Shown piece after piece: positions 3,655 to 30,454 of a stretch of 43,432 bases of DNA. Position numbers and translations under genes: made by a program. The stretch's first letter is position 1. Each line of letters begins with the position of its first letter. The notes under the pieces were generated by a model. It was not told where the DNA came from and searched no databases. It saw only the letters and a program-made list of their open reading frames with translations. The DNA is from Rhizobium sp. Q54 (GTDB lineage Bacteria; Pseudomonadota; Alphaproteobacteria; ATCC43930; CGMCC-115725): contig CAMATN010000031.1 in the NCBI GenBank assembly GCA_945861155.1, forward strand, positions 1 to 43,432, written 5' to 3'.

Positions 3655-5175
3655 ATGAGCGACGACGCGCCTCGCGATCCGACGACGCTGTCGCGGCGGG
3701 TCATGATCATGGTTTCGGTCATCCTCGGGTCGACCCTGTACTCGACGACCTTGCTGATCGCATCGACGCTGTTGCCGCAGATGCAGGGGGCGATGGCGGC
3801 GACCCAGGACGAGATCGCCTGGACAATGACGTTCAACATCCTCGCCACCGCGGTCGTGACGCCGATGACCGGGTGGCTGGTCGCCAGTTTCGGCCGCCGC
3901 AACGTGATGGTCGGTTCGATGGCGCTGTTTTCGATGGCCACCTATCTGTGCGGCGCGGCCGAATCGCTCGAGAGCCTGGTACTTTGGCGGGTTCTGCAGG
4001 GCGGGGCGGGCGCGCCGGTGACCCCGTTGTCGCAGACGATCCTGTTTGACAGCTTCCCGCGACGCCAGCACCGCATTATCACCTCGATCTATGGCATGAC
4101 GGTGGTCATCGGCCCGGTGATCGGCCCGGCGCTCGGCGGCTATATGTCTGACCTCTACAGCTGGCGCTGGGCGTTTTACGGGCTGGTGCCGGTCGGGATC
4201 GCGTCCTGCATCGGTCTTCAGCTCAGTTTGCTGCGCGACCCGCCGCGCCAGATCGTGCGGCTCGACTGGATCGGCTTTCTGAGCCTTTCGGCGGCGATCT
4301 CCTGCGTGCAGCTGGTCCTGTCGCGCGGGCAGCGGCTCGATTGGTACGAATCGCCCGAGATTTGGCTGGAAACCATCGGCGCCGTCTTCGCCCTATACCT
4401 CTTCATCGCGCATAGCCTGACGAGCGGGAAGCCGTTCCTGAACCCGCGGCTGCTGCTCGACCGCAATTTCGCGCTCGGCCTCCTGCTCGTCGGCGTCTTT
4501 GGCATGCTCAACGTCACCCCGATGGTGCTGTTGCCGCCGCTGTTGCAGCAGCATGCCGGGTTTCCCGACGCGATGATCGGCGAGGTGCTGGCGGCGCGCG
4601 GCGTCGGGGCGACGATCGGGTTTTTCGCCGCGATGTTCATCGGCCGGCTCGACCCGCGCATCGGGATGAGCATCGGCTTCGGGTTGCAGGTGATATCCGG
4701 CCTGTGGCTGATGAGCATCGATCTCAATGTCAGCCTGGAGATCCTCGCCGCCAACAGCATCCTCCAGGGGATGGCGATCGGCATCATCTGGGTGCCGCTG
4801 ACGACCGCCAGTTTCGAGACGCTGGAAAACCGCTTCTGGCCCGAGGGGATGGCGGTGTTCCACCTGATGCGCAACATCGGATCGAGCTTTTTCATCTCGC
4901 TCTCGGTCGCCGACATCGTGCGCGTCACGGCGCAGAACTACAGCCGCATGACCGAGATGATCTCGCCCTATAATGACCGGCTGGACTATCCGTGGGTGAT
5001 GGGCGGATGGAGCATCGAGACGCTGCCCGGGCTGGCGCGGCTGTCGAAGGAAATTCACCGACAGGCGGCGCTGATCGGCTATCTCGACGCCTTCGCGATG
5101 TACACCGCCGCCTCGGTCGGGGCGATGGTGCTTGTCATGCTGGTCAGAAGGCGGCGCCGCGGCGCGGGAGCCTAG
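3655..5175 (+). CDS. emrB: DHA2-family MFS drug efflux transporter (EmrB/QacA type)
   Basis: This 506-residue protein has about 14 hydrophobic helices, the length and topology of the DHA2 (EmrB/QacA) family of proton-driven multidrug exporters. Family landmarks are WTMTFNILATAVVTPMTGWLV in helix 2, FGRRNVMVGSM as the loop 2-3 motif A, RVLQGGAGAPVTPLSQTI (a helix 4 stretch), and the motif C-like VIGPVIGPALGGYMSD. ATG 3655 is preferred because GGAG is 10 bases upstream; an earlier in-frame TTG would add 16 residues without hydrophobic character. It is divergent from marR-emrA, so adaptor and pump are made from separate transcripts sharing one regulatory region. Its stop overlaps the convergent hepT stop by four bases. 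Confidence 0.92.
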   Translation: MSDDAPRDPTTLSRRVMIMVSVILGSTLYSTTLLIASTLLPQMQGAMAATQDEIAWTMTFNILATAVVTPMTGWLVASFGRRNVMVGSMALFSMATYLCGAAESLESLVLWRVLQGGAGAPVTPLSQTILFDSFPRRQHRIITSIYGMTVVIGPVIGPALGGYMSDLYSWRWAFYGLVPVGIASCIGLQLSLLRDPPRQIVRLDWIGFLSLSAAISCVQLVLSRGQRLDWYESPEIWLETIGAVFALYLFIAHSLTSGKPFLNPRLLLDRNFALGLLLVGVFGMLNVTPMVLLPPLLQQHAGFPDAMIGEVLAARGVGATIGFFAAMFIGRLDPRIGMSIGFGLQVISGLWLMSIDLNVSLEILAANSILQGMAIGIIWVPLTTASFETLENRFWPEGMAVFHLMRNIGSSFFISLSVADIVRVTAQNYSRMTEMISPYNDRLDYPWVMGGWSIETLPGLARLSKEIHRQAALIGYLDAFAMYTAASVGAMVLVMLVRRRRRGAGA

Positions 5176-27815: not shown

Positions 27816-27888
27816 GGGGCGAGAGCTTTATTGGGTGTCTGGCCGGTGAGAGCTTTCGTTATTAGGAGTGCACACGATTTCCTTGACC

Positions 27889-27948
27889 GTCATCACTGGG
27901 CTTGTCCCGGTGATCCACGTGGATGGCCGGGACAAGCCCGGCCATGAC
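27889..27948. repeat. Interspersed palindromic repeat, family A (copy 2)
   Basis: A 28-base left arm (27889-27916) and a 28-base right arm (27921-27948) form an imperfect hairpin with loop ACGT and five mismatches. Each arm contains the inner motif GGGCTTGTCCCGG or its complement. A copy of the right arm is at 35-62. The element lies between tatC and serS and is readable in frame with serS, encoding a peptide of the [17 protein letters not shown] type that often appears in automated annotation. Confidence 0.85.
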
Positions 27949-27975
27949 GAAGTGGGAGAGCTTCGAAGGGCAGTC

Positions 27976-29256
27976 ATGCACGATTTGCGATGGATCCGGG
28001 AAAACCCGGAGGAATTCGACACGGGTCTCGCTCGGCGTGGCCTGGCGCGCGCGGCCGAGGGGGTTCTCAGGCTCGATAGTCAATGGCGAGCGCTGGAAAC
28101 CGAGGCGCAGGAATCGCAGGCGACGCGCAATCGGATGTCGCGCGAGGTCGGCGCCATGAAGAAGCGCGGCGAGCCGGTTGATGAGGTCATGCGGCAAATT
28201 CAGTATGGCAAAGACAGCGAGGCCGCGACAGCCGCCCGAGCAGCCGAGTTGCGCCGACAATTGGACGAATTGCTCGCGAGCCTGCCGAACCTGCCGGCGG
28301 CGGATGTGCCGGATGGCGACGAGAGCGCCAACCGCGAATTGCGCCGGATCGGGGCGCCGCCCTCGTTCGATTTCGCGCCGCTGCCGCACGAGGCGATCGG
28401 CGACAATTCAGGGCTGATGGATTTCGCCCTCGCCGCGAAGCTGTCGGGCGCGCGTTTTGTCGTGCTGAAAGGCGCGCTGGCCCGGCTCGAACGCGCGATC
28501 GCGCAATTCATGCTCGATCTGCACACGGGCGAATTCAGCTACACAGAGATCGCGCCGCCTTATCTGGTGCGCGACGAGATCGCGTTCGGCACCGGCAATC
28601 TGCCGAAAGCCGCCGAGGACATGTTTCGCACCACCGGCGGGCTGTGGCTGATTCCGACCGCCGAGATGCCGCTGACCAACCTCGTCGCCGGCGAGATCCT
28701 CGACGAGGCCGCGCTGCCGCTCAGGTTTACCGCGTGGACTCCGTGTTTTCGCTCGGAAGCGGGCGCCGCGGGGCGCGACACCCGCGGCATGATCCGCCAG
28801 CACCAATTTGCCAAGGTCGAGCTGGTGTCGATCACCCGGCCGGAGGATTCCGAGGCCGAGCACGAGCGCATGACCGGCTGTGCCGAGGAAGTCCTGAAGC
28901 GGCTCGGCCTCGCCTACCGGGTCGTGCTGCTGGCGACCGGCGACATGGGTTTCGCGGCACGCAAGACCTACGATATCGAGGTATGGCTGCCCGGCCAGAA
29001 CGCCTATCGCGAGATTTCAAGCTGCTCGAATTGCGGCCCGTTCCAGGCCCAGCGGATGAAGGCGCGCTATCGCCCCGCGGGTGGCCCGCGGGAGGGCAGG
29101 GGGACCCAGCCGGTGCATACCCTCAACGGCTCCGCGCTCGCGGTCGGCCGCACGATGATCGCGATCCTCGAGAACTTTCAGCGCAGCGACGGCACCGTCG
29201 CGATCCCCGAGGCGTTGCAGCCCTATATGGGCGGGCAAAAGGTGATTGGGGGCTGA
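27976..29256 (+). CDS. serS: Seryl-tRNA synthetase
   Basis: This 426-residue class II synthetase charges tRNA-Ser (and tRNA-Sec if present). It begins with the antiparallel coiled-coil arm (about residues 25-105) and has motif 2 in [20 protein letters not shown] and motif 3 in [18 protein letters not shown]. All active-site arginines expected from these motifs are visible. The start [15 protein letters not shown] at 27976 is family-standard; the frame runs upstream through the palindromic repeat and would add 36 spurious residues. The next ATG overlaps the serS stop (TGATG), but the reading frame there is only a 20-codon surE remnant. Confidence 0.96.
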
Positions 29257-29318
29257 TGGCTGATGCACATATCGATCCGGGCAAATGCCGGATTCTGATT
29301 TCCAACGCATTGCGCTAG
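29256..29318 (+). pseudogene. surE: surE remnant (first codons only)
   Basis: A 20-codon frame starts on the last base of serS (TGATG) and reads [20 protein letters not shown] before a stop. CRILISN matches the RILISN that opens SurE 5'-nucleotidases, where DDG normally follows. In many alphaproteobacteria surE and then pcm stand exactly here, between serS and the LysM/M23 gene. The rest of surE and all of pcm seem deleted. The bases up to the next gene (29319-29431) show no recognisable SurE or Pcm sequence. This is inferred from seven matching residues plus position, so it is probable but not proved. Confidence 0.5.
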
Positions 29319-29431
29319 GGCGCGGGGCGATTTCGCCCTAAACTATCGCGAACCGCTTGGCGCCTCCGCGGCGTGGGGTCGATCGAGGGCGTGGCGGGCT
29401 TGCTTGTCGGGGGACGGGCAAGGAGGGGGAA

Positions 29432-30454
29432 ATGAGCCAACCGCGATTCGGGCGGCCACGCATCCTGCGGGCTGCTGCGGCTGCCGTACTTGCCGGCCTT
29501 GTTGCGGGCTGCGGATCCGGTCCGCCGGCGCCGGTTATCCTGAACGGCGCCGCGCCGGGCATGGCCGGGGACGGCCCGGCAGGGGCGATGCCCGGAGCGA
29601 TGCCCCGGGCGCTGACCAACCCGGTTCCCAAAGCGATGCCGGCTTTGCGCGAGAACCGCCGTATCGTCGTGCAACGCGGCCAGTCGCTGGGTCGCATCGC
29701 GCAGGAATACCGCGTGTCGGAGCGCGCGATCATCGCGGCCAACAATCTGAAGCCGCCCTACAAGATCGAAACCGGGCAGAATCTGCTGATCCCCGGAGCC
29801 GGTGCGCCGCTCAGCCAGGCAAAAGCCGCACCGCCGGCTGGGGCGGGGCGCCCGCCGCCCGAGATCATCCCGCTGGACGGACCGGCGCCAGGAAAATCGA
29901 TCGCCTTCCCGCCGGCCGCGTCCGCGCCCGCCGAGCCGCCTGCCATTGCCGGTTCGCAAAGGCCGCCGCCGGGTCCGCCGCACGGCGCCGCCGAGAGCGC
30001 GCGCGCCGAAGCCGCGAAACCGGCGCCGAGCTCGAAGGGCAGCCCCATGCCGTGGCCGGTGCAGGGCCGGGTCCTTGCCGGGTATGGCGTCGCGGCGGGG
30101 GGCGCCCACAATGATGGAATAAACATCGCCGCGCCGCGCGGGGCGCCGGTCCGGGCCGTCGACGGCGGTGTCGTCGCCTATGCCGGAAACGAGGTGCGCG
30201 GCTACGGCAATCTGGTCCTCGTCAAGCACGCCAACGGCTTTATCTCGGCCTATGCGCATCTGGAGGAGCTGCTGGTTAAGCGCGATGAGCAGGTCAAACG
30301 TGGCCAGGTGATCGCCAAGGTCGGCGCGACCGGCGGGGTCGGCGAGCCGCAGCTCCATTTCGAGCTGCGCCGCGACAAGCGCGCCGTCGATCCGCGCGAG
30401 TTTCTCGCTCCCACGCCCAGCGCCGGCAGCAAGGGTGTCGCGAGCCCGGGCTGA
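29432..30454 (+). CDS. NlpD/DipM-like LysM and degenerate M23 lipoprotein
   Basis: This 340-residue lipoprotein has its signal peptide ending in lipobox LVAGC, with lipidated Cys27. A LysM peptidoglycan-binding domain follows (about 77-121, VVQRGQSLGRIAQEYRVSER). A Pro/Ala linker leads to an M23 fold (about 200-335). The zinc site looks disabled: H226 is followed by N231 where the metal-binding Asp is expected, and the terminal HxH reads Q307-L-H309 (PQLHFELR). H276 is present. Such degenerate proteins activate cell-wall amidases instead of cutting. The start at 29432 has a strong ribosome-binding site (AGGAGGGG). It lies between the surE remnant and the convergent ATPase. Confidence 0.9.
   Translation: MSQPRFGRPRILRAAAAAVLAGLVAGCGSGPPAPVILNGAAPGMAGDGPAGAMPGAMPRALTNPVPKAMPALRENRRIVVQRGQSLGRIAQEYRVSERAIIAANNLKPPYKIETGQNLLIPGAGAPLSQAKAAPPAGAGRPPPEIIPLDGPAPGKSIAFPPAASAPAEPPAIAGSQRPPPGPPHGAAESARAEAAKPAPSSKGSPMPWPVQGRVLAGYGVAAGGAHNDGINIAAPRGAPVRAVDGGVVAYAGNEVRGYGNLVLVKHANGFISAYAHLEELLVKRDEQVKRGQVIAKVGATGGVGEPQLHFELRRDKRAVDPREFLAPTPSAGSKGVASPG

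Follow-up and report, generated by a model that had tools for sequence, protein, structure and literature searches.

The locus was analysed within the window, i.e., the whole stretch of DNA studied, which is 43,432 nucleotides long. The locus extends from the seryl-tRNA synthetase gene serS to a LysM/peptidase M23 gene, and genomes of relatives are denoted by the labels G001, G002 and so on. The features of the locus are as follows:

27976 to 29256, forward strand: serS (seryl-tRNA synthetase), complete, with the Pfam domains Seryl_tRNA_N and tRNA-synt_2b
29256 to 29306, forward strand: 5' end of a surE remnant, codons 1 to 17, at the place and in the frame of surE in G001, G004, G005 and G006
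29307 to 29318, forward strand: GCA TTG CGC TAG, three codons probably of the surE 3' end (ALR of ...VLSALRKVFEG), then a stop
29319 to 29431, forward strand: residual intergenic region ahead of the M23 gene, its last approximately 50 bases similar in most of the genus
29432 to 30454, forward strand: LysM/peptidase M23 gene (nlpD-like), assigned by Pfam LysM and Peptidase_M23 and by synteny

The open frame of serS reaches upstream to a GTG at 27868, and the SerS N-terminal domain starts at the ATG at 27976. An inverted repeat with a long stem is located between tatC and serS (27888–27949; z-score of -6.0 when folded as DNA) and extends the serS open frame upstream of this ATG. One arm of the repeat, CGGGACAAGCCCGGCCATGACG, has 25 exact copies in the genome and none when read backwards; the repeat has the appearance of a dispersed palindromic element.

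The serS stop codon TGA (29254–29256) shares its last base with the A of an ATG at 29256, which gives a one-base overlap (TGATG). The frame opened by this ATG (29256–29318) has 20 codons and ends with TAG at 29316–29318, and 113 bases separate this stop from the start of the M23 gene. No sigma-70 consensus promoter was found at the scar, and no terminator was found there by consensus. In relatives, the nlpD-like M23 gene is, by synteny, the gene that follows surE or pcm. The gene downstream of the frame in the window carries LysM and Peptidase_M23, so serS was indeed left adjoining the nlpD-like gene, as had been proposed for this locus.

surE is a stress-survival gene whose product is the 5'/3'-nucleotidase SurE (Pfam PF01975), and NDDG is the N-terminal metal site of the SurE domain. 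According to the original prediction, the 20-codon frame on the serS stop is the SurE N-terminus, left behind when surE was deleted from a syntenic position. The comparison with relatives bore out both points. surE was located at the serS stop in five of the seven other genomes of the genus (G001, G003, G004, G005 and G006), and it is intact in all of these except G004, in which the gene is divided between contigs, with approximately 26 codons behind serS on the first and the remainder on a second. serS is not followed by surE in G002, and the junction is not visible in G007. On contig 537 of G004 (L071, positions 1–300), the sequence past serS and the approximately 26 surE codons becomes a second serS 3' end, which is probably a misassembly at the contig end, or a partial duplication.

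The first residues of surE are MADLRIEPGRCRILISNDDG in G001, which is the closest to the window, MAERIDHNNCRILISNDDG in G006, MAEPINRDKCRILISNDDG in G005, MAEHKRLARILISNDDG in G004 and MVNCGSKGSDVRGQPRILISNDDG in G003, where the beginning is divergent. The remnant and the G001 surE were equal at 13 of 17 residues, and the DNA at 29256–29306 was identical to G001 surE at 41 of 51 bases with no gaps. The same segment was identical to G006, where the serS match continues into surE, in 39 of 51 columns (3 gap columns), to G005 in 40 of 52 columns (5 gap columns) and to G004 in 36 of 51 columns (9 gap columns); for G003, the alignable part was the last 19 bases only. The motif class [RK][IV][LV][LIV][ST]N, which includes RILISN, was matched at a single one of the 86,860 codon positions that the six window frames contain, and this occurrence is the remnant frame. 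Because the place, the DNA identity and 13 of 17 residues are common with relatives, the likeness of the frame to surE is far above chance. Judged from sequence, the 20-codon frame is a genuine remnant of a surE deletion, and this reading is firm. The remnant resembles serS-linked surE in its start position, in its overlap with the serS stop, in its first 17 codons and, probably, in three tail codons. In intact SurE, SN is followed by DDG, whereas DDG is missing from the remnant; a functional SurE would have a SurE domain with the N-terminal NDDG, and the frame ends after SNALR. Among the genomes seen, no relative had the same short frame with no surE history.

The left endpoint of the deletion was clear and lies after codon 17. 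At the other end, the nine bases GCATTGCGC, which occur once in the window with both strands counted, are identical to the G006 surE tail (...CTC AGC GCA TTG CGC AAA GTG TTC GAG GGG TAA) and have the same codon register. The corresponding place in the G005 tail reads GCACTGCGC, G003 and G001 differ more, and none of these three has the nine bases exactly. The local alignment of the head segment with G006 had a score of 21, below the 95th percentile of the shuffles (24), and that with G005 had a weak score of 24 (95th percentile 23, largest shuffle 30). Hence, with the G006 match not significant and the G005 match barely passing, the right end is probable only. The nine-base G006 match, which is not significant by shuffles, places the right breakpoint probably in the last surE codons. 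The remnant would then differ from intact surE by the loss of about 236 of the 260 codons of G006, i.e., residues 17–252 by a hand count from the nine-base match. A few bases shared by both ends would be in keeping with a short-repeat deletion.

The stretch up to the M23 start exceeded all 200 shuffles for five of six relatives (G006, G005, G003, G002 and G004), and its score against G001 was 31, below the 95th percentile of 34. Positions 29313–29344 were weakly similar to the intergenic stretch of G005 before its M23 gene. Because the stop is immediate and this segment weakly resembles the G005 intergenic DNA, the last surE codons would have to have gone in a further step. Given the same weak alignment, DNA behind the surE tail may have been lost in a second small deletion, or the two ends may have been joined once, within the intergenic region.

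The absence of pcm from the serS locus of the window is real. When the eight genus members were searched with the G002 Pcm, a close Pcm was detected only in G002 itself and in G004 (74% identity). The order serS–surE–M23 was present on one contig in G001, G003 and G006. The G005 contig continues past the end of surE with DNA similar to the M23 upstream stretch of the window and ends soon after. surE, pcm and the M23 gene are all present in G004. As a separate observation, contig 212 of G006 (L186), a genome without the locus pcm, encodes a Pcm-like protein that is 52% identical to the G002 Pcm and lies inside a 705-aa open frame.

The order of the losses was explored with a multi-gene tree that covered 16 of the 37 family genomes and combined SerS, the DUF815 ATPase, SecD, SecF, TatC and the M23 protein. 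Gene pieces shorter than 35% of the query were omitted; in 11 of the 16 rows, one or more of the six genes was missing or less than 60% complete, and G007 has three. The window formed one clade with G001, G003, G005 and G006 (SH-aLRT of 99.6, UFBoot of only 74), and G002, G004 and G007 were placed apart from this pcm-less clade. In a constrained-tree comparison, the constraint was already satisfied by the best multi-gene tree. In the serS-only protein tree, the window nests beside G003 and G006, G002 and G004 fall among the pcm-less genomes and G001 falls outside, with moderate support; the branching of G001, G002, G004 and G005 thus differs between the serS-only trees and the multi-gene tree. 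On the serS-only branching, pcm would have been lost at least twice or regained. Preference was given to the multi-gene tree, whose alignment has more columns. The genus members are all drafts, 74–99% complete and one per species, so an absence in a single genome carries some error. pcm was probably lost first, because the four relatives that bear surE and lack pcm group with the window apart from G002 and G004. On the multi-gene tree, a single loss of pcm before that of surE is probably the simplest history.

The original prediction had surE and pcm removed together. One deletion that took both genes from an ancestor with both would account for a window that has neither, and it would start from the commonest order of the family, serS–surE–pcm–M23, in which 19 of the 32 resolved genomes have both genes. 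G004, of the same genus, has both as well, and the serS-only tree does not unite the pcm-less genomes. However, pcm is already absent from four (G001, G003, G005 and G006) of the five genus members that have surE at serS, and these four group with the window (UFBoot of 74); the residual nine bases resemble the end of surE. The joint event was rejected on the relatives and the multi-gene tree, the serS-only tree being less clear, and it is considered unlikely.

The presence of surE and pcm in the window's genome was tested by profile and protein searches. This genome is a draft in 226 contigs with a completeness of 96.9%, and a copy may lie in the missing part. The PF01975 profile had no match in it at E up to 0.001, and the same profile matched in 10 of 14 named genomes used as a control and in 46 of 61 genomes, the window's own among those searched. 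When the window's genome was searched with the G006 SurE protein, nothing matched up to an E of 10; this search had no positive control. Other SurE matches were observed away from serS. G002, which has no serS-linked surE, bears a second, divergent SurE at an unlinked place on contig 115 (L075, approximately 3958–4671) that is 45% identical to the G006 SurE. Matches of lower score lay away from serS in G025, G033, G035 and G036; in G019, G029 and G034, such matches were additional to the main copy. The unlinked matches suggest replacement in some lineages.

For pcm, the window's genome had seven PF01135 (PCMT) matches, and the only strong one was a paralogue of 225 aa on contig 7 (105 bits), which adjoins a gene that is TolC-like from a look at its sequence, without a profile. 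This protein belongs to the PCMT family like Pcm, but it is only 31.5% identical to the serS-linked Pcm of G002; it is 53–73% identical to its counterpart in eight relatives, and four of these (G002, G004, G012 and G034) have serS-linked Pcm too. The best TIGR00080 (Pcm/PIMT) match in the window's genome, this paralogue, was at 106.2 bits, below the cut-off of 159.05, which alone is weak because only 4 of 14 control genomes passed. A moved pcm was rejected, as the sole strong PCMT match is a paralogue that coexists with serS-linked Pcm in four relatives.

In a draft of 226 contigs, an apparent deletion could stem from faulty assembly or from a minority strain within a metagenome bin. Against this stand the normal gene order on either side of the junction and the lack of a displaced surE in the other contigs. 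Moreover, few bases seem to be common to the two breakpoints as placed above, and a long-word assembler would not be expected to join them. An artefact or a minority variant therefore has only a small probability. None of the sister genomes carries the surE scar, which may thus not be fixed in the species.

The start codon was retained at the junction. The serS stop lies inside the surE start ATGGCTGA in G001, G004, G005, G006, G029 and G034 and inside ATGGTTAA in G003; the overlap in the window is TGATG. Owing to its overlap with the serS stop, the surE start stays in place in any deletion that leaves serS whole; therefore, its survival requires no selection for coupling. The 'retained translational coupling' of the original prediction thus stands as far as the TGATG overlap is concerned, but the overlap explains the retention, which does not point to selection.

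A function for the frame, for example as a coupled leader peptide or as a device setting ribosome release between serS and the M23 gene, would accord with its intactness, its overlap with the serS stop and its continuing closeness to the surE start of the relatives. However, the frame was seen in one genome only, 113 bases intervene before the M23 start, the start codon would be left by any deletion that spares serS, and a recent deletion accounts for the similarity equally well. No argument for a role of the 20-codon frame was seen, and its retention for a function is very unlikely.

Similar starts were present elsewhere in the family. G033 has lost surE and kept pcm, and ATGGCTGA and a 19-codon frame, MADTAFVAMMRGSSGAGCH, remain. 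G025 has lost surE, and ATGGCTGA at its serS stop now serves as the in-frame start of pcm. The pcm of G035 begins at the serS overlap, with ATGACTGA. The position and the letters suggest that these three starts descend from surE. Like the window, these genomes have no surE after serS and keep a start codon that overlaps the serS stop; they differ in that they keep pcm, whereas the window has no pcm but has 17 surE codons. The start at the surE site opens pcm in G025 and probably in G035, which is not so in the window. In G002, there is no leftover, and it is pcm that overlaps the serS stop. The surE-less G017, G014, G023 and G027 showed no ATGGCTGA start at the serS end. Tentatively, the serS-overlapping surE may have been lost repeatedly, with the freed start taken by the next gene (pcm in G025, probably G035) or kept as that of a short translated peptide (the window, G033). 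If this were true, the site would be a natural series for watching a translational start pass from a dead gene to its neighbour.

The length of only 20 codons might speak for a likeness to SurE that arose by chance, with no surE history. This reading is already refuted by the surE of relatives, given that G001 surE has the same position, frame and start overlap and 13 of 17 residues and that the motif class occurs once in the six window frames, and its probability is negligible.

The frequency of such losses was evaluated in 37 family genomes, the window included. The serS 3' junction was resolved in 32 of them (G007, G026, G031, G032 and G036 were left out). Both genes were present at serS in 19 of the 32, including G004, where they are split over contigs, and G030, where a piece of pcm lies on another contig. 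surE without pcm was found in 4 genomes, pcm without surE in 8 (G002, G014, G017, G023, G025, G027, G033 and G035) and neither gene in 1, the window. Among the matches listed for 80 named alphaproteobacterial loci, 66 had a surE match beside serS, in agreement with the claim that surE has this position in many alphaproteobacteria, and 14 did not. Among the matches listed, these 14 included five Bartonella and one Rhizobium, and 5 of the 14 were without pcm too; L125, which by the same matches has neither gene, has a LysM/M23 gene directly after serS. The loss had been expected to be unusual, and the eight other family genomes without surE after serS do not bear this out. Together with the surE-less named loci, they make the absence of surE a recurring state. 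Hence, the surE remnant is real but ordinary, and surE losses recur in the family. In the open-licence literature, no paper treating surE, pcm, serS and nlpD together was found, and among the titles listed none dealt with alphaproteobacterial surE loss.

The history that we strongly favour is a stepwise loss, pcm and then surE, that left a dead, functionless remnant. It would start from the ancestral order serS–surE–pcm–M23. pcm would have been lost in the ancestor common to the window, G001, G003, G005 and G006, which would give serS–surE–M23. In the lineage of the window, approximately 0.7 kb would then have been deleted, starting directly behind codon 17 of surE and probably reaching almost to the last codons; what remained of the surE 3' end would have been trimmed afterwards. 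The start codon would have survived via its overlap with the serS stop, and the 20-codon frame is probably still translated by coupling to serS, presumably without function.

The remnant does not indicate a new system. The locus is a clean example of a probably stepwise loss of surE and pcm from a widely conserved neighbourhood, and the start codon retained after the deletion of an overlapping gene requires no selective explanation. The stress survival of the organism may be affected by the absence of SurE and the locus Pcm.
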